Assembly (NCBI GenBank): GCA_023253775.1
Contig: JALRFI010000028.1
Span: 1 to 40,673, forward strand
DNA: 40,673 bases
Source: Crocinitomicaceae bacterium
GTDB lineage: Bacteria > Bacteroidota > Bacteroidia > Flavobacteriales_D > Crocinitomicaceae
Direction: 5' to 3'
Positions 31,588 to 40,553 of this stretch are shown in pieces. The notes under the pieces are model-generated. The model was not told the DNA's origin. It saw nothing but the letters and a program-made list of their open reading frames with translations, and made no database searches. The position numbers and the translations under genes were made by a program. Every line of letters begins with the position of its first letter. Position 1 is the first letter of the stretch.

Positions 31588-32955
31588 ATGGCGCAAATAG
31601 AGATCAGACTTCCTAAGATGGGAGAGAGTGTGACGGAGGCTACTATTAGCAACTGGTTAAAGAATGTTGGTGATACAGTGGATATGGACGAACCACTTGT
31701 TGAGGTTGCAACTGATAAAGTTGACAACGAACTTCCTTCTGAGGCGGCAGGGGTATTGATAAAGCGTCTTTTTGAAAAAGATCAAGTGGCTCAGGTCGGT
31801 GATGTGATCGCAATCATTTCGACAGATGGAGATAGTGGATCTGCATCAAACGAACCAGCTAAAGAGATCAGCAATTCGGTTGCATCTGCCGAGGACATAA
31901 CAAAAATCGTTGAACAAGCTATTACAACAGTTAATGGTTCTACAGTAGAGATTTCCAAAAATGGTCCTTCTGGAAAGTTTTATTCACCATTGGTGAGAAG
32001 CATTGCCGAAAGAGAAGGAATTTCAATGAACGAACTTGAAACAATAAATGGTACAGGTCAGGCAGGAAGAGTTACCAAAAAAGATATTCTTAGCTTCGTA
32101 AGCAACCGAGGTAGTCAACCCGTCGCAACTGCAGTTTCTGTTTCGACTAACAATGTTATTATTCCGGCAACTGCATCTTCTCCAACGTCTACTGTTTCCA
32201 ACAGTTTCTTAAATAACATTAAAGAACCGATAGTTATTCCGAATCCAGGAGATGAAATCGTTGAGATGGATCGAATGAGGAAGATCATCGCTGAACATAT
32301 GGTAATGTCAAAGCATGTTTCACCCCACGTTACGTCTTATGTTGAAGCAGATGTTACAAATATCGTAAACTGGAGAAATAAAGTTAAAAACGAATTCATG
32401 AAGCGTGAAGGAGAAAATATCACCTTCACTCCTATCTTTATTGAAGCGATTGTTAAAGCCATTAAGGATTTTCCGATGATTAATGTATCTGTTAGCGGCA
32501 CGAGCATTATAAAACGAAAGGATATCAATATCGGAATGGCTACTGCTTTGCCATCTGGCAATCTAATTGTTCCGGTTATTAAGAATGCTGATCGATTAAA
32601 TCTGACTGGAATCACGAAGTCAGTAAATGAACTCGCGAACAACGCTAGAAATAACCAGTTAAAGCCAGAAGATATTCAAGGTGGTACTTTCACGATTACC
32701 AATGTTGGTTCTTTTGGAAATGTAATGGGTACACCAATAATTTCTCAACCACAGGTGGCAATTCTTGCTGTCGGTGCAATCCGAAAGATGCCTTCAGTAA
32801 TTGAAACTCCTCAAGGTGACTTCATAGGCATCAGGCATAAAATGTTCCTATCTCACTCGTATGATCACAGAGTTGTTGATGGATCACTAGGTGGACAATT
32901 TGTAAGAAGGGTGGCTGATTACCTAGAACAATTCGACCCTAACAGAGAACTCTGA
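31588..32955 (+). CDS. 2-oxoacid dehydrogenase complex E2 (probably branched-chain), dihydrolipoyllysine-residue acyltransferase
   Basis: A 455-residue E2 acyltransferase. The lipoyl domain is at 1-78 with lipoylated K44 in ATDKVDNELP. The E1/E3-binding domain lies at about 130-170 (FYSPLVRSIAEREGISMNEL, GTGQAGRVTKKDIL). The catalytic domain has YDHRVVDG with H427 and D431. The DKVD lipoyl motif and the MPKMGES-like N-terminus (IRLPKMGESVTEATI) point to a branched-chain-type or 2-oxoglutarate E2 rather than a second PDH E2. No E1 or E3 is adjacent, so the substrate cannot be settled. It has its own promoter and a hairpin spanning its stop codon, and the first PorE-like gene starts 32 bp later. 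Confidence 0.9.
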   Translation: MAQIEIRLPKMGESVTEATISNWLKNVGDTVDMDEPLVEVATDKVDNELPSEAAGVLIKRLFEKDQVAQVGDVIAIISTDGDSGSASNEPAKEISNSVASAEDITKIVEQAITTVNGSTVEISKNGPSGKFYSPLVRSIAEREGISMNELETINGTGQAGRVTKKDILSFVSNRGSQPVATAVSVSTNNVIIPATASSPTSTVSNSFLNNIKEPIVIPNPGDEIVEMDRMRKIIAEHMVMSKHVSPHVTSYVEADVTNIVNWRNKVKNEFMKREGENITFTPIFIEAIVKAIKDFPMINVSVSGTSIIKRKDINIGMATALPSGNLIVPVIKNADRLNLTGITKSVNELANNARNNQLKPEDIQGGTFTITNVGSFGNVMGTPIISQPQVAILAVGAIRKMPSVIETPQGDFIGIRHKMFLSHSYDHRVVDGSLGGQFVRRVADYLEQFDPNREL

Positions 32956-32987: not shown

Positions 32988-35342
32988 ATGAAAAGGTACT
33001 TTTTAGCGATATGCATTGCTTGTCTAAGCTATGTTTCATTAGCTCAAGTGACTGAACATGAAATTAGACAAATGACTCAAGAAGCTCCAGAACAACAACT
33101 TGTTGTTGAATGCTCAAGAATGCTACAGGAGAACTATTTTTATTTTGCTGAGATCATTGTTGATCGCTTACTTCAGATCAATCCTAATAGCGCTAATTAT
33201 CATTACAGAAAGGGATTTATAGTTTTAGACTCTAGAAGAGATTTTGAAACAGCTTTCCCTTACCTGATCTTCGCAACATCGAGTATTAACAAAAACTATG
33301 ACATGTATTCTTCGAAGGAGAAAAGTGCTCCAACTGATGTCTACTTTCATCTTGCTCGATGCTATCATCTTGACGAACAATTGGACAAAGCAAAAGAATT
33401 CTATCAGAAATTCATTGACAACACGAATCCAAAATCAGAGTTAGTTCCAAAGGCTACTCTTCGATTGTTTCAGTGTGATGTTGCCAAAGAATTGATTAAC
33501 AATCCAAAAAAAGCTGTGGTAAAAAACGTAGGTGAAGTAATTAACACCCAGTATCCTGAATACTCACCAGTGATTTCATTGGACGGGTCATCATTATATT
33601 TTACATCAAGAAGACAGTGGGAAGATCAGTCGACCGATGACTACAGAGATAATCAATTAAATCAATACCCTGAAGATATCTATGTTTCCTATCAGGACTT
33701 TGAAACAACAAACTGGACAAAACCAAGAAGACTTGAGTTCTGTGAAGGTAGGTTAAACGAAGCTTCAGTCACAGTTAGTTCCGACGAAAGAATCATCTAT
33801 ACTTATGAGGATAGAACCGGCGCCGGAGACTTGTATTTTTCGGATTTTCAGAATAATGAATTTCAGTTTCTTAAAAAACTAGGATACAAAGATGTGAATA
33901 CTAAGTTTTGGGAAACTCATTGTACAGTAACTCCTGATGGTCAACAAATGTATTTCACTTCTGATCGTCCCGGTGGATATGGGAAAAGAGATATTTATAG
34001 AGTCGTGAAGCTTCCAAACGGAGATTGGTCTGAGCCAATAAACCTTGGGCCCACTATCAATACTGAAGAAGATGAAGACTGTCCGTTCATAGCTGTAGAT
34101 AATAAAACACTTTATTTCTCTTCTAATGGTAAGACATCGATGGGAGATTTCGACATTTTTGTTTCGGTTAGAGATGACAAAGACATATGGTCAATTCCTA
34201 TCAACCTTGGTTATCCAATAAATAGTACAGGTGATGACGTATTTTATACCACGACATCTAATGGACTTAAAGGATACCTAACATCTTACAGGAAGAAAGG
34301 ATTCGGAGAGAAAGACATCTATGAGATTCATAATGACTACATGGAGATTAAGAATGCAGCTGTGCTAAAAGGAAGAATCTATACTTCTGACGGGAGTCCC
34401 TTACCTGAAAACGTTAGAATGGAATTGACTTGTAAGAACTGTGAGAACAATACAGTGCTTTCAATGTATCCAAGAATGAGAGATGGTAAGTTCATCAACA
34501 GTTTGCAGCCTTGCCGTGAGTACATTATTGGCTTCTTTGTAGACTCTATCTTAGGTTCAGTATACCGTGAGTCATTCTCTACCAAATGTAATGCTGGATA
34601 TGAGGAGATTCTAAAAGAGGTTGTGTTGGATATAGATAGAAACAGAATAGTTCCTTTACTTACTTACACCCTTGACGGATTTGTGTCTGATGCCAAGACT
34701 TCAGAGATACTTAAGGATGCTACAGTTGAATTCATTGATAATACTTCAGGTATTTCATCTGAGCTTTTGACCTCAGATGATAAAGGATTCTTTTTATCTG
34801 AACTTTTGGTGGATAAACGTTATGGAGACACTATGGATTACACAGTAAAGGTGTCTAAGTTAAATTTCCTGACACAAAACTTCCAATGGCAAGCAGTTTT
34901 AGGTGAAGAAACAAATATTCATTTAGCCTATGTTCTGGAAAAGCCGGAGCTTGGAATCGACCTTGCAAAAGTGTTGAAATTGAATCCTATTTATTTTGAT
35001 GTAGATAAATCTAACATACGACTTGACGCGGAGATCGAATTGAACAAGATCGTTCAAATCTTGAATGATAACCCTGAGATTAAAATCGAACTTGGATCCC
35101 ACACCGATTGTCGCGCTTCTAAAGCGTACAACATGTCTTTGTCAGATAGACGTGCGAAGTCTTCAGCGGAATATATCAGAAACCGCATCTCAAATCCAGA
35201 GAGAATTTATGGTAAGGGATACGGAGAATCAAAGCTTGTGAATGAATGTGAATGTGAAGACAGTGAGATTACTCCGTGTTCCGAAGAGCAACACCAAGAA
35301 AACAGAAGAACTGAATTCCGTATTGTTCAGAATACGAAATAA
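32988..35342 (+). CDS. PorE-like envelope protein, copy 1 (TPR, PD40 beta-propeller, CRD, OmpA)
   Basis: A 784-residue protein with the domain order of T9SS PorE. The signal peptide is MKRYFLAICIACLSYVSLA. A TPR-like helical region spans about 20-165 (SANYHYRKGF, VYFHLARCYHLDEQLDKAKEFY). PD40/WD40-like blades cover about 185-455 (SLDGSSLYFTSRR, DGQQMYFTSDRPGGYGKRDIY, NKTLYFSSNG). A domain beginning TSDGSPLPENVRMEL follows at about 463-560, then a CRD-like sandwich at 563-660. A complete OmpA domain lies at 662-784, with both peptidoglycan ligands: D707 (GSHTDC) and R722 (LSDRRA). Known PorE is a lipoprotein; here the signal looks like type I (ends SLAQ). It heads a tandem of three paralogs and is the only copy with a canonical OmpA domain. 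Anchoring T9SS components to peptidoglycan is inferred from family knowledge. Confidence 0.85.
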   Translation: MKRYFLAICIACLSYVSLAQVTEHEIRQMTQEAPEQQLVVECSRMLQENYFYFAEIIVDRLLQINPNSANYHYRKGFIVLDSRRDFETAFPYLIFATSSINKNYDMYSSKEKSAPTDVYFHLARCYHLDEQLDKAKEFYQKFIDNTNPKSELVPKATLRLFQCDVAKELINNPKKAVVKNVGEVINTQYPEYSPVISLDGSSLYFTSRRQWEDQSTDDYRDNQLNQYPEDIYVSYQDFETTNWTKPRRLEFCEGRLNEASVTVSSDERIIYTYEDRTGAGDLYFSDFQNNEFQFLKKLGYKDVNTKFWETHCTVTPDGQQMYFTSDRPGGYGKRDIYRVVKLPNGDWSEPINLGPTINTEEDEDCPFIAVDNKTLYFSSNGKTSMGDFDIFVSVRDDKDIWSIPINLGYPINSTGDDVFYTTTSNGLKGYLTSYRKKGFGEKDIYEIHNDYMEIKNAAVLKGRIYTSDGSPLPENVRMELTCKNCENNTVLSMYPRMRDGKFINSLQPCREYIIGFFVDSILGSVYRESFSTKCNAGYEEILKEVVLDIDRNRIVPLLTYTLDGFVSDAKTSEILKDATVEFIDNTSGISSELLTSDDKGFFLSELLVDKRYGDTMDYTVKVSKLNFLTQNFQWQAVLGEETNIHLAYVLEKPELGIDLAKVLKLNPIYFDVDKSNIRLDAEIELNKIVQILNDNPEIKIELGSHTDCRASKAYNMSLSDRRAKSSAEYIRNRISNPERIYGKGYGESKLVNECECEDSEITPCSEEQHQENRRTEFRIVQNTK

Positions 35343-35454
35343 TTGTTTCAAATAAAATTCTAAATCCGTTTACAGACGTACTTTTTGCTATTTTAGATGG
35401 CTTGAAACATTTAGTTCAACAACCCGTATTCTAAAACATACAAATTGAAAATCA

Positions 35455-37560
35455 ATGCAAATGCATATGAAGAATAAGATTCTATTAATGATGATGGTAG
35501 CAGCAACGTTCAGTTTTGCCCAACCTACTGAATCAGAGATCAGAGAATTTGCCAGAACAAAATCGGAGCAAGAAATCGTTACGGAAACTTCCCGCTTGAC
35601 ACAGGATGGATTTATCTTTTTCGCTGACATTTTAACTGACCGTTTGCTTCAAATAAATTCCAACAGCGCAAATTATAATTATCGCAAAGGATTTATGATT
35701 TTAAGTCTAACAGGAGATTTTGAGAAAGCTATTCCCTATTTTATTGTAGCAACCACGGATATCGATCCAAACTTCGACATGTATTCTTCTAAGGAGAAAA
35801 GTGCTCCAACCGACGCTTATTATCATTTAGCTCAATGTTATCACTACAATGAGGAGATTGATCTGGCAAGGGAAAATTATCAAAAATTCCTAGATGCAAC
35901 GAAGAAGAAATCGGAATTAATACCAAAGGCTCAACTGAGGATTCAGCAATGTGACTTGGCGAAACAAATGATGGCCTCTCCTATTAATGTTAGATTAAAG
36001 AACATCGGGAAAACGATCAATACAAACTTCCCAGAATATAGCCCTGTTGTTTCACTTGACGGGTCTGCACTTTATTTCACTTCAAGACGGCCATGGTCAA
36101 ATGGCGAATCTGATAATTTTAAAGATCTTGCAATCAATCAATTTCCGGAGGATGTTTACGTTAGTTTTCTTGATAAAGACTCAAACTGGACAGAACCAAT
36201 TATGCTCAATTTCTGTCTTCCTAAAAAAAATGAGGCAACAATGGCAGTGAGTACTAACGAACGTAGGATTTATCTTTATGAAGATTCTACAGGAAATGGA
36301 GATATTTTCTACACTGATTTTTATGCTAGTAAATTCAATGAGATTCTTCAATTAGAAGGTGAAAAGATAAATACTGACTATTGGGAAACGCACGCTATGG
36401 TTTCTCACGACCAAAGTAGAATGTTCTTTTCTTCTGATCGTCCTGGTGGATTTGGGGGTCGAGACCTTTATGTCAGTTATCGTAAAGCTGATAGTACCTG
36501 GTCAAAGCCAGTCAACATGGGACCAAGAATCAACACTGCAAATGATGAAGATTCTCCATTTGTATCTGTGGATAATCGTCAACTTTATTATTCTTCAAAT
36601 GGTGAAAAAAGCATTGGAGGATTTGATATTCTGATTTGTGATCTCATGGCTGACAATACATACTCGGAAGGAAGAAACATTGGATATCCATTCAACTCAA
36701 CCAATGATGACATTTTCTACACAACTACTGTCGACGGACTAAAGGGATACATGACGTCCTACAGAAAAGATGGTTTTGGAGAAAAGGACATATATGAAGT
36801 CCATAACGATTATTTGGGTGTTAAAAGCACAGCAATATTCAGAGGAGTGATTAAAACATCAGATGGGTCTCCTTTACCGGAAGATTTTGCATTGAATTTT
36901 AGGTTAATATGCGATGGTTGTGATGAATCAGAACAAAACCGCTCATTGTTCCCAAGATTGAGAGATGGAATGTTTTTAACTGGAATCAAACCATGTGAAA
37001 CATACAAAATCGCTTATTATAATGCTTCAGAAAATCAATTGATGCATGAAGAAACTTTTGTTACGGATTGTGATTCTGATTACCAAGAGATCTACAGAGA
37101 GTTGATTCTTGATGTGCCTTCAAGAAGTATCGTAATACCGAAGGACACTGTTCTTGAAATTGATCCTGTTATAGTTACGACACATAAAAACATTGAATAT
37201 ATTCACTACTTCGATTACAATAAGAATAAGCTTACTGTGAACAAAGGAGATTTGAAAGACTTTGTAAGAGAGATTGAAGCACAACTTAATGATGGTCGTC
37301 CAAGGATTACGATTAACGTTTATTCTTCTGCGTCTAATGTTCCTACAAAAACTTATGAGACTAACGAGAAGTTAACTTCGATAAGGGCTGAAAACATGAA
37401 ATATGACCTTCAAACTCATTTTGAAAAAAAACGTGATTTTGCAGGGAAAGTTAACGTTGTAATTGTATCAGCAATTGTGGATGGACCAGAATATGAAAAA
37501 GACTTCAAAGACAAGAACAAGTACAAGCCTTATCAGTTTGTTGGTTTAAAAACTGAATAG
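35455..37560 (+). CDS. PorE-like envelope protein, copy 2, with divergent OmpA-like C-terminus
   Basis: A 701-residue paralog of the preceding gene. Starts at 35455, 35461 and 35467 are all in frame; the last gives the typical signal MKNKILLMMMVAATFSFA. The TPR-like region (SANYNYRKGF, AYYHLAQCYHYNEEIDLA) and PD40 blades (SLDGSALYFTSRRPW, SRMFFSSDRPGGFGGRDLY, RQLYYSSNGEKS) are conserved, as is the TSDGSPLPEDFAL domain. The CRD-like domain of copy 1 is absent. The C-terminus (about 577-701) follows the OmpA layout (IHYFDYNKNKL, an amphipathic helix, ITINVYSSASNV, NEKLTSIRAENM), but the HTD motif is replaced by SAS at about 625-627, while R644 is kept. It ends KYKPYQFVGLKTE. Peptidoglycan binding is doubtful. 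Confidence 0.82.
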   Translation: MQMHMKNKILLMMMVAATFSFAQPTESEIREFARTKSEQEIVTETSRLTQDGFIFFADILTDRLLQINSNSANYNYRKGFMILSLTGDFEKAIPYFIVATTDIDPNFDMYSSKEKSAPTDAYYHLAQCYHYNEEIDLARENYQKFLDATKKKSELIPKAQLRIQQCDLAKQMMASPINVRLKNIGKTINTNFPEYSPVVSLDGSALYFTSRRPWSNGESDNFKDLAINQFPEDVYVSFLDKDSNWTEPIMLNFCLPKKNEATMAVSTNERRIYLYEDSTGNGDIFYTDFYASKFNEILQLEGEKINTDYWETHAMVSHDQSRMFFSSDRPGGFGGRDLYVSYRKADSTWSKPVNMGPRINTANDEDSPFVSVDNRQLYYSSNGEKSIGGFDILICDLMADNTYSEGRNIGYPFNSTNDDIFYTTTVDGLKGYMTSYRKDGFGEKDIYEVHNDYLGVKSTAIFRGVIKTSDGSPLPEDFALNFRLICDGCDESEQNRSLFPRLRDGMFLTGIKPCETYKIAYYNASENQLMHEETFVTDCDSDYQEIYRELILDVPSRSIVIPKDTVLEIDPVIVTTHKNIEYIHYFDYNKNKLTVNKGDLKDFVREIEAQLNDGRPRITINVYSSASNVPTKTYETNEKLTSIRAENMKYDLQTHFEKKRDFAGKVNVVIVSAIVDGPEYEKDFKDKNKYKPYQFVGLKTE

Positions 37561-37567
37561 AATCTTA

Positions 37568-37599
37568 CTTGAATTCAACGAGAATATTAGCTACATTTG
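37568..37599 (+). promoter_or_regulatory. Predicted internal promoter of PorE-like copy 3
   Basis: CTTG at 37568-37571, a 20-nt spacer and TACATTTG at 37592-37599 match the Bacteroidetes consensus. The element is followed by a run of ten A residues and then the TTG start at 37616, so the leader is about 10 nt and A-rich. Confidence 0.65.
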
Positions 37600-37615
37600 A
37601 AAAAAAAAAATCACT

Positions 37616-39685
37616 TTGAAGCAGCTAATACTCTCGTTTTTTATTTCCATTCCCATCAGCACCTTGTATTCTCAGATTCTACAATCCGAAATAGACGAGC
37701 TTTTAAACACCAAAAAAGAATCATTTCTGGTACGTGAGAATTCACGTTTAATGCAAGAAGATTTTTTGTTTTTCGCGGATCAAATTGCAGCAAAACTACT
37801 TACGTTTCAGCCAGAAAGTGCTAACTACCATTATCGTAAAGGATTCACAGAACTATACTCGATCCAAGATCCGGCAGCTGCAATTGAGCATTTTAATATT
37901 GCAATTCAAAATACGGACAAAAATCATGACGCATTTTCAAAGAAAGAAACAAAGGCACCTACGGACGTATTTTATCATCTTGCAGAATGTTATCATTTGA
38001 CAGGACAATTTCAAAAATCAATTGATCTGTTGAATACTTATAAATCCATGTCTCGTGATGAATCAGAATTATTAAACAAAATCAATTTAAAACTTTCCCA
38101 AGTTTCAAATGCAAAAAATGCTGCAGGACCAAATTTAATAGCAAAGCCACTAAACGAAGTAAATACCTTCTACCCTGATTTTGCCCCGCTCATTTCACTT
38201 GATGAAAAAGTATTATTTTATACTGCTCGAAGACCTTGGGAAAATGGTGAAACAGACCTATATTTTGACCGAAAGTTCAATTTCCCCCCTGAAGATGGCT
38301 ATGTGACGGAATTTATTAATGGTAAATGGTCCAGCTCAAAACGAATTCTACTATCAGAACCACATTTGAATGAAGCAGGATTGGCAATGAGCGCCAATGA
38401 AAGAGATATTATCCTCTACAGTGATTCGACAGGAAATGGTGACCTTCTTTTTGCTAAAAACGAAAATTCATATCTCAATCCGCAACAATTGTACTTGGAT
38501 ACCACATTGAATACTGAATTTTGGGAGACCCATGCTGCTTTTTCAGGAGATGGAAAAACAATTCTTTTCACATCAGACAGAGATGGTGGACATGGTGGTA
38601 GGGACATCTATATAATGAAGAAAACAGATGGGAAATGGTCCACGCCCGAAAATATCGGATCTCCAGTCAATTCAGAATACGATGAAGACGGCCCTTTTCT
38701 GTCGTTCGATGGCTCAGTATTATTCTTTGCTAATAACGGACTTAACAGTTATGGCGGGTTCGATTTATTCTACAGCAAAAAATCATCTGATGGAACATGG
38801 TCTGCCCCAGTGAATATGGGAGCGCCATATAACACCACCTTTGATGATGTATTTTTATCTACTACTATAGATGGTAAACATCACTACTTTTCATCAAATA
38901 GAGAGGGTACAAAAGGGAGTTTTGATATTTTCTCCATTGAGTCACCATCTAACTTCTCTCAGATAGCAGCTTTCATCGGAAAAATAAAAACGTCAACAGG
39001 AGAACCGCTTCCATCAGATGTGCACCTTGATTTCAAAATTTCAGCAGATGTTAATAGTGAAGGATGGAATGAAGAAATCTACCCTCGATTAAGGGATGGT
39101 CTATTCTATGGGAAACTTGAGCCATGCAAAACATTTCATCTCACTTTGAACAATCCGAATGCGGATAAGCCTTTCCATGAGGAGACATTTATAACTGAGT
39201 GTGAACGCGATTATCAGGAAGTATATCGTGAATTTGTTTACAATATGGAAACCAAACTGATCGAACCGATTAAGATTGACGTTGACACTACGGGTCCTGC
39301 CATTACTGAATTTAAGAATGTGGAATTCCTTCATTATCTTGATTACAATATGACTATGGTCGAGAATGATCCGTCGTTGAAGGTAGCACTGGAAACAATT
39401 GAAGAACAGATCAGAAACGGTAGACAAGAAATTACATTGAATGTATATTCTTCTGCATCGAAGGTCACTACCAAATCTTTTGATTCTAATGAGAAACTTG
39501 CTCAATTAAGAGCAGATAACTTGGTTAAAACGTTAACATCTAAAATTGATCCTGTCCTAATCACCTCAGGAAAAGTGAGAATTGAAATTACAAGCGTAAT
39601 TGTAGATGGTCCATCATACAATAGCGATGCAAATAATAAAAGCAAATACAGACCTTACCAATTCGTAGCGTTTAAAACCGAGTAA
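37616..39685 (+). CDS. PorE-like envelope protein, copy 3, with divergent OmpA-like C-terminus
   Basis: A 689-residue third paralog. The start is a TTG at 37616 (TTG AAG CAG), giving the signal MKQLILSFFISIPISTLYS; an in-frame TGA at 37598 leaves no upstream ATG. The TPR-like region (SANYHYRKGF, VFYHLAECYHLTGQF), PD40 blades (LDEKVLFYTARRPW, GKTILFTSDRDGGHGGRDIY, GSVLFFANNG) and STGEPLPSDVHLDF domain match copies 1 and 2. Like copy 2 it lacks the CRD-like domain and ends in a divergent OmpA-like unit (LHYLDYNMTMVEND, LNVYSSASKVTTK, NEKLAQLRADNL with R632, then KYRPYQFVAFKTE). It may have its own promoter. The exonuclease gene starts 10 bp after its stop. Confidence 0.82.
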   Translation: MKQLILSFFISIPISTLYSQILQSEIDELLNTKKESFLVRENSRLMQEDFLFFADQIAAKLLTFQPESANYHYRKGFTELYSIQDPAAAIEHFNIAIQNTDKNHDAFSKKETKAPTDVFYHLAECYHLTGQFQKSIDLLNTYKSMSRDESELLNKINLKLSQVSNAKNAAGPNLIAKPLNEVNTFYPDFAPLISLDEKVLFYTARRPWENGETDLYFDRKFNFPPEDGYVTEFINGKWSSSKRILLSEPHLNEAGLAMSANERDIILYSDSTGNGDLLFAKNENSYLNPQQLYLDTTLNTEFWETHAAFSGDGKTILFTSDRDGGHGGRDIYIMKKTDGKWSTPENIGSPVNSEYDEDGPFLSFDGSVLFFANNGLNSYGGFDLFYSKKSSDGTWSAPVNMGAPYNTTFDDVFLSTTIDGKHHYFSSNREGTKGSFDIFSIESPSNFSQIAAFIGKIKTSTGEPLPSDVHLDFKISADVNSEGWNEEIYPRLRDGLFYGKLEPCKTFHLTLNNPNADKPFHEETFITECERDYQEVYREFVYNMETKLIEPIKIDVDTTGPAITEFKNVEFLHYLDYNMTMVENDPSLKVALETIEEQIRNGRQEITLNVYSSASKVTTKSFDSNEKLAQLRADNLVKTLTSKIDPVLITSGKVRIEITSVIVDGPSYNSDANNKSKYRPYQFVAFKTE

Positions 39686-39695
39686 ATAAATAGGG

Positions 39696-40553
39696 ATGAG
39701 ATTAAACCTTGAAAGGCCTTTAGCTATCTTCGATCTAGAAACAACAGGAATAAATATCTCTTCTGACAGAATTGTTGAGATCGCTATTGTTAAATTAGCT
39801 CCGGACGGTACACAAACTTCCTATTTGAAGAAAGTTAATCCTGGAATCCCAATTCCTCCAGAAATCACAGCGATTCATGGTATTTCGGATGACGACGTCA
39901 GAAATGAACCATCCTTTAGAGATATTGCACTTGAAGTTTTGGAATTCATTGGTGATGCAGATCTGGGGGGATATAATTCAAATAAATTCGATATTCCTGT
40001 AATTGTCGAAGAATTAATGCGAGCAGAAATTGACATAGATTTTTCTGAAAAACGTTTTATCGATGTTCAAAATATCTTTCATAAAATGGAACAACGAACG
40101 CTTGCTGCTGCATTCCAGTTTTATTGTAAGAAAAATCTTGAAAATGCTCATAGCGCGCTACATGATGCACAAGCAACACTAGATGTACTACTCGCTCAAA
40201 TGGAACGCTATGAAAACCTTCAAAATAATGTTAGCTACCTCGCCGAATTTTCACGCGGTACAAATGCAGATATTATTGATTTCGCTGGTAGATTGGCAAG
40301 AAACGATAGCAAAGAGGTAATTTATAATTTCGGAAAACACAAAGGAAAAACGATTCGAGAAGTGGCTCGAATTGAACCAGGTTATTATGGTTGGATGTTA
40401 GATGCTGACTTTCCTCTATTCACAAAGAAGATTCTAAAGTTGGAGATGGAAAAGATCAAGTTAGAGAACGAAAGAAAAAAACAGGAAAAGTCAAAAAAAG
40501 AAGAAGAAAATTTACAGTCTAAGTTGGATGCTCTTAAAAATAAAGATAATTAA
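39696..40553 (+). CDS. DnaQ-like 3'-5' exonuclease with C-terminal DUF3820-like domain
   Basis: A 285-residue protein. Residues 8 to ~165 form a DEDDh exonuclease domain: Exo I FDLETTG with D13 and E15, Exo II GYNSNKFDIPVI with the Asp near 99, and Exo III HSALHDAQATLDVL near 153-163. Residues ~205-250 carry a small domain of the DUF3820 type (IYNFGKHKGKTIREVARIEPGYYGWML). A highly charged Lys/Glu coiled-coil tail follows to the end. The domain pair recurs in Bacteroidetes; whether it proofreads for Pol III or trims other nucleic acid is not decided here. The start follows the third PorE-like gene by 10 bp. Its last 42 bp overlap a convergent gene at the window edge. Confidence 0.87.
   Translation: MRLNLERPLAIFDLETTGINISSDRIVEIAIVKLAPDGTQTSYLKKVNPGIPIPPEITAIHGISDDDVRNEPSFRDIALEVLEFIGDADLGGYNSNKFDIPVIVEELMRAEIDIDFSEKRFIDVQNIFHKMEQRTLAAAFQFYCKKNLENAHSALHDAQATLDVLLAQMERYENLQNNVSYLAEFSRGTNADIIDFAGRLARNDSKEVIYNFGKHKGKTIREVARIEPGYYGWMLDADFPLFTKKILKLEMEKIKLENERKKQEKSKKEEENLQSKLDALKNKDN

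Follow-up and report, generated by a model that had tools for sequence, protein, structure and literature searches.

A predicted OmpA-like domain with an altered ligand pocket in a tandem array of PorE-like genes from a Crocinitomicaceae bacterium

OmpA-like domains are usually taken as markers of peptidoglycan binding, and in the T9SS the PorE-like partners that carry them have been proposed to tie type B adhesins to the cell wall (PMC9143113, PMC12618676). In PorE, the side chains of Asp576, Asn584, and Arg591 were described as holding diaminopimelate (DAP), with main-chain amides also contributing (PMC7192894). PorP is reported to be bound by PorE and to bind a type B CTD protein in turn (PMC9143113). 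Between two and 13 PorE homologues have been reported per species (PMC5053529), and in F. johnsoniae six porP-like genes adjoin porE-like genes, an arrangement by which non-mobile adhesins were proposed to be tied to the wall (PMC9143113, PMC12618676). The natural OmpA-like domain of Tp0624, in which the pocket Asp is replaced by Ala, was reported not to bind DAP (PMC5104382).

Our study focused on three tandem PorE-like genes in one contig of a Crocinitomicaceae bacterium (the window, meaning the whole stretch of 40,673 nucleotides analysed), the second and third of which end in a domain with Ser at the site of the DAP-binding Asp (the Ser-type domain). We put slightly less than even odds, roughly 45%, on reading copies 2 and 3 as periplasmic adaptors of the PorE-like type, built of a TPR-like and propeller chassis and an OmpA-fold domain whose ligand pocket has been rebuilt. 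The usual inference of peptidoglycan binding would fail for a conserved branch that retains the fold, the Asn, and the Arg and always has the Asp replaced, and such a branch would point to a second anchoring mode. Among openly licensed PubMed Central papers, none was found whose title or abstract describes the Ser-type domain.

Organization of the tandem array

The three-gene array of the original prediction proved real, with all ORFs on the plus strand: copy 1 at 32988-35342 (784 aa), copy 2 at 35455-37560 (701 aa), and copy 3 at 37616-39685 (689 aa, with a TTG start). An E2 acyltransferase gene (31588-32955, plus strand) lies upstream and an exonuclease gene (39696-40553, plus strand) downstream, and both recur in the gene order of relatives. 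The sequence TACATTTG at window positions 37592-37599, ahead of copy 3, resembles a Bacteroidota -7 promoter box, and copy 3 may therefore have its own promoter.

Pfam found PD40 in all three copies, as had been predicted. In copy 1, a TPR-like region, a PD40 propeller, and a TSDGSPLP domain are followed by a CRD-like module (residues 561-646; 34668-34925, plus strand) and a canonical OmpA domain (34992-35264, plus strand). The OmpA assignment, expected from the outset, was confirmed by PF00691 over residues 669-759 (E 2.7e-14, 53.7 bits against a gathering score of 27.2), with D707 and R722 where they had been placed and N715 between them. The CRD-like module matched CarboxypepD_reg (PF13620, E 1e-4) below the cut-off, at 23 of the 32.3 bits needed, and did so in copy 1 alone.

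Copy 2 comprises a TPR-like part, a beta-propeller (residues 179-451; 35989-36807, from PD40 and the AlphaFold model), a modelled beta-sandwich containing TSDGSPLP (residues 459-560; 36829-37134), and the non-canonical OmpA-like domain (residues 577-701; 37183-37557, from the profile match, the AlphaFold model, and the structure search), all on the plus strand. Copy 3 has the same order of parts by alignment, and its Ser-type domain (39287-39682, plus strand) matched the profile at E 6.8e-51, with S615 and N625 (both by alignment) and R632 in the pocket. Judged by eye, both copies appear to begin with a signal peptide, in which no lipobox was apparent. It had been claimed that they lack the CRD-like domain; this stands insofar as neither gave a CRD match and the copy 1 module is unmatched in both, but the model of copy 2 retains the beta-sandwich at residues 459-560.

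Copies 1 and 2 share 51% identity over the first 558 columns of their pairwise alignment, and past column 558 a single 21-bit BLAST stretch was found (E 0.18). Identity between copies 2 and 3 is 40%, end to end over 702 columns. With PF00691, neither copy 2 nor copy 3 gave a match even at E as weak as 1. A T6SS OmpA-type NCBIfam model touched them at E 0.07 and 0.01, respectively, which hints at OmpA kinship.

Predicted fold and pocket of the Ser-type domain

The AlphaFold model of the C-terminal domain of copy 2 (mean pLDDT 90.8, pTM 0.80) has the topology strand-helix-strand-helix-strand-helix-strand. Its top matches among solved structures were OmpA-like domains, the first being 3td3, OmpA of A. 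baumannii (Foldseek E 9.6e-6), to which VIA-align gave a Z score of 10.2 with an rmsd of 3.1 over 113 residues; the comparison with PorE (6top) gave Z 8.9 and rmsd 4.4. The full-length model (pLDDT 85.1, pTM 0.72) places a helical TPR-like part, a propeller, one beta-sandwich (459-560), and a low-confidence linker ahead of the OmpA-like domain. The C-terminus of copy 2 is thus predicted to adopt the OmpA fold, as the first look at the array had suggested. The shared tail (VDGPxY...KYxPYQFV) had been regarded as an addition to that fold; in the model it is part of the fold itself, where it completes the third strand and supplies a short helix and the fourth strand.

By spacing, PorE Asp576, Asn584, and Arg591 correspond to D707, N715, and R722 of copy 1, which contains the DAP-binding motif TD(x)7NxxLSxxRA as given in PMC5104382; the corresponding stretch in copies 2 and 3 reads AS(x)9NxxLxxxRA. 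The hhalign alignment placed S627, N637, and R644 of copy 2 (codons at 37333-37335, 37363-37365, and 37384-37386, all on the plus strand) on the canonical Asp, Asn, and Arg, with a probability of its own of just 2.5% and E 0.019, so that the mapping of the pocket also rests on the matching motif. The proposed change of HTD to SAS with the Arg kept was correct for the Asp site, which is Ser, and for the Arg, found at R644 and R632 as predicted; the prediction had missed the kept Asn and, in the alignment, two residues inserted between the Asp site and that Asn.

This pattern goes beyond chance and is fixed in relatives. Among fetched domains with an HMM E below 1e-10 and few gaps, all 123 distinct homologues of the Ser-type domain have Ser at the Asp site together with the Asn, Leu81, the Arg, Gly118-Pro119, and Gln135. 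Asp, Asn, and Arg are all present in each of 70 distinct canonical domains. In the Ser-type domains, conserved GPxY and YxxYQ stretches occupy the places of the canonical GYGE and NRRxE, outside the DAP contacts reported for PorE.

A different ligand for copies 2 and 3 is plausible, because the Asp is lost and because Tp0624, with Ala for Asp, was described as not binding DAP (PMC5104382). Retention of the Asn and the Arg speaks for a ligand seated in the same pocket. As two of the three DAP-contacting side chains are present, weak or altered DAP binding could nevertheless persist, and the domain might still bind peptidoglycan of the ordinary DAP type, the role of the Asp being taken by Ser or a main-chain group and a PorE-like function being preserved in a divergent sequence. 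The same predicted fold and the use of main-chain amides, Asn, and Arg by PorE (PMC7192894) speak for this explanation. We consider it unlikely, since Asp is present in 70 of 70 canonical domains and Ser is fixed in 123 of 123, the loss of Asp in Tp0624 is accompanied by no DAP binding in the account of PMC5104382, and a SPOR domain has been added in one relative, as though the protein required a further contact with the wall. That relative (L032:1129-3597, G051) has a Ser-type protein ending in SPOR (PF05036, E 6.4e-5, over the cut-off), a possible second wall-binding module. A SPOR domain apparent by eye in a further relative, L151, had no Pfam match at E up to 0.01; L151 gave a weak PF00691 match (E 0.0048, below the cut-off).

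Alternatively, the Ser-type domain may have given up small ligands and become a protein-protein module, with the OmpA fold docking onto a lipoprotein or a barrel and the conserved residues holding loops. Replacement of the Asp in all 123 homologues counted, the position of GPxY and YxxYQ outside the PorE DAP contacts, and a PorP/SprF gene adjoining the short form of the protein would all suit such a module. Conservation of Asn78 and Arg85 in 123 of 123 domains, for which a pure docking surface has no obvious need, makes us regard it as possible though rather doubtful.

On the main reading, an adaptor with a rebuilt pocket, the chassis would hold an outer-membrane partner, which by analogy with PorE and PorP may be a PorP/SprF-type barrel carrying a T9SS type B adhesin. 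The C-terminal Arg/Asn pocket would still grip a carboxylate-bearing envelope ligand, but would not engage the side chain of DAP as canonical domains do. Copy 1, with the same chassis and a canonical CRD-OmpA end, should bind ordinary peptidoglycan stems, and neighbouring copies would give two anchoring modes on one chassis.

Distribution, gene order, and history

A search with the C-terminus of copies 2 and 3 had been suggested as a check, and it returned a conserved family with matches through the order and the class. The seed of the profile was gathered by a pattern demanding SAS, so that the profile leans to the SAS form; later matches were accepted by score alone. With genome matches counted at E up to 0.001, the Ser-type domain was found in 155 of 299 genomes of the order of the window (52 of 65 genera) and in 93 of 295 genomes of the class (44 of 156 genera). 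In each of these two draws, E is above 1e-10 for five of the matches. In a phylum draw, 8 of 395 genomes matched, and six of those matches were weak (E 1e-4 or worse). The phylum and class draws are different sets of genomes, and neither is a census. Confinement to the order, as suggested by the phylum draw, was ruled out by the class draw. Named records with the domain include Crocinitomicaceae and Fluviicola MAGs, Taishania pollutisoli, and Cryomorpha ignava; in viral contigs, no relative was confirmed. Three MAGs titled Chitinophaga pinensis (L095, L098, and L100) also carry it, under titles that look wrong, and the canonical copy of L095 clusters with copy 1 of the window in trees of the chassis.

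Of the 109 loci of the long form, to which copies 2 and 3 belong, that have 1.3 kb or more of upstream sequence, 79 show an E2 gene upstream (72 of 89 with repeats removed). At the remaining 30, the recognised upstream gene was another array copy in 27, and none was recognised in L023, L219, and L222. A recurring gene order is GT, E2, [canonical], Ser form, [PD40], exonuclease, FAH, and the E2 gene was found at 14 of 20 class loci read. A canonical copy adjoined a Ser copy at 60 of the 109 long-form loci (47 of 89 with repeats removed), and the two kinds also adjoin in Taishania pollutisoli (L134), a cultured relative. In two genomes of another class family, f84 (L215 and L223), the array runs Ser form, canonical, Ser form, so that mixed tandem arrays occur beyond the order of the window as well. 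Long forms, including copies 2 and 3, sit among apparently unrelated genes, outside PorP/SprF operons.

A short form of ca. 505 aa combines PD40, a SprB-like repeat (below the cut-off in both proteins searched), and the Ser-type domain. At 12 of 16 loci, or 11 of 13 with repeats removed, the closest gene recognised upstream of it was PorP/SprF. A type B CTD adhesin gene precedes the PorP/SprF gene at L111, L113, and, in the genome of the window itself, contig C30, where the adhesin (TIGR04131, E 9.7e-16), PorP/SprF (E 4.4e-67), and the Ser-type protein occur in that order. At the seven short-form loci read besides that on C30, an adhesin was upstream in two, and two of the five without one have less than 0.7 kb of upstream sequence. 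Contig C13 of the same genome holds a type B CTD adhesin (E 4.8e-17), PorP/SprF (E 6e-71), and a canonical CRD-OmpA protein. A further short form of this genome, on contig C80 (L039), has no adjacent PorP/SprF gene; its domain is 72-74% identical to that of copy 2, a closer match than the domain of copy 3, which has 42-43%.

The suggested PorP/SprF link is drawn from gene order and concerns the short form only, not copies 2 and 3. Co-occurrence with the T9SS was uninformative: SprA was present in 286 of 295 class genomes, and in 92 of the 93 with the domain if both class draws are the same genomes, as their handles suggest. The genome of the window holds SprA in part (profile positions 2-658). 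A Ser-type partner that lets the adhesin slide on the gliding track was also considered; the SprF tail is described as having Cys-X-Cys (PMC12635249), and the idea is weakened by the C30 carrier, which ends without it. The position of a Ser-type protein in an adhesin-PorP/SprF operon is what makes the finding matter, and with one genome holding two adhesin operons, each with one kind of partner, the question is directly testable. Canonical copies beside Ser copies, together with both kinds of partner in sister type B operons, would fit some division of labour, as originally envisaged.

The history of the array was followed in chassis trees of 80 and 42 of 131 deduplicated rows, hand-picked for family coverage. 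Both trees left out five long canonical neighbours (L154, L155, L163, L167, and L168; 893-1163 aa); the 42-row tree, rooted on canonical PD40-OmpA paralogues from the same genome, also left out the long branches L001, L005, and L007. In the 42-row tree, the rows that come from seven other families of the order have the Ser type, and canonical rows are nested within the family of the window. In none of 200 bootstrap trees (0%) did a single branch separate the Ser rows from the rest, and a minimum of three changes is required by well-supported branches; the 80-row tree agrees. A 68-row tree, with class rows added and the five long canonical neighbours restored, gave the same picture: those five form a starred clade of their own outside the locus rows, and a starred clade of 39 rows contains 31 Ser and 8 canonical rows, all 8 from the family of the window. 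Deeper in the class, canonical and Ser chassis are intermixed at unresolved forks.

Within the order only, then, the chassis trees place the Ser form before the canonical one at this locus, the reverse of the predicted rewiring of copies 2 and 3 from a copy-1-like ancestor. Copy 1 in turn looks like a chimera. Over its first 555 residues it shares 51% identity with copy 2 and 32% (275 columns) with the canonical protein on C13, while its OmpA domain is 60% identical to that of the C13 protein and has no significant likeness to copy 2. A similar picture could also arise from gene conversion of the chassis between neighbours. As to concerted evolution of long- and short-form domains, the domain tree is too short to resolve it.

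The tandem position might suggest that copies 2 and 3 arose by duplication of copy 1 and are now decaying, which we judge very improbable. Against one near relative, dN/dS was 0.017 for the domain of copy 2 (dS 2.8, saturated) and 0.094 for that of copy 3, and such low values indicate a domain that was retooled, not decayed. The residues fixed in 123 domains, the greater age of the Ser form at the locus that the chassis trees imply within the order, and the matches across the class also contradict decay.

More broadly, and more tentatively than for the two copies themselves, we suggest that the Ser-type domain may represent an unnamed OmpA-fold family across many families of the class, its pocket rebuilt for a non-DAP ligand. 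In tandem arrays, this C-terminal module and canonical OmpA ends would replace one another on a common TPR-propeller chassis. In T9SS type B operons, the choice of module would then set how the adhesin carrier is anchored, by an ordinary wall tether or by a second, undescribed mode. Since the altered domain is kept in many relatives, sometimes near surface adhesin genes, it may hold envelope proteins in a way not yet described.

Comparison with known systems

Copies 2 and 3 resemble PorE (PG1058) of Porphyromonas gingivalis in having TPR, a beta-propeller, and a predicted OmpA-fold C-terminus and, for the short form only and by gene order, in the class of the PorP/SprF partner. Unlike PorE, they have no CRD match and no DAP-binding Asp. 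PorE is a lipoprotein associated with the outer membrane; no lipobox was apparent by eye in copies 2 and 3. The full TPR-propeller-CRD-OmpA order is thus absent from them and displayed by copy 1, with the CRD below the cut-off. The T9SS PorE model NF052230 scored 249.6, 138.9, and 107.6 bits for copies 1, 2, and 3 against a cut-off of 600. Across the genome of the window, its best match was a protein on contig C96 (372.1 bits) and the best stretches in copies 1, 2, and 3 gave 170, 141, and 98, none reaching the cut-off, below which the model also matches 6 of 14 control genomes, E. coli included. Because these scores fall below the cut-off and the C96 protein scores higher, "PorE-like" here denotes architecture, not orthology.

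The best NCBIfam model for all three copies was that of CHU_0125 from Cytophaga hutchinsonii (NF053607), with 330.9, 161.6, and 123.1 bits against a cut-off of 620, and the TPR-PD40-OmpA order is common to both (PMC5891637). In copy 2, the CHU_0125 and PorE matches extend to about residue 646, into the altered domain. CHU_0125 differs from copies 2 and 3 in the Pal-like OmpA_C domain ascribed to it (PMC5891637).

Tp0624 of Treponema pallidum likewise has an OmpA fold in which the DAP-contacting Asp is replaced and the Arg kept (PMC5104382). It has Ala for Asp and Glu/Gln at the Asn site, whereas the Ser-type domain has Ser, the kept Asn, and the two-residue insertion, and according to PMC5104382 DAP is not detected in the wall of T. 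pallidum. The type B operons of F. johnsoniae, which comprise a substrate, a SprF-like shuttle, and a PorE homolog, are matched on C30 and C13 by the same kinds of genes in the same order. The F. johnsoniae complexes were proposed to be anchored to the wall (PMC12618676, PMC9143113); the PorE-like protein encoded on C30 instead ends in a Ser-type domain.
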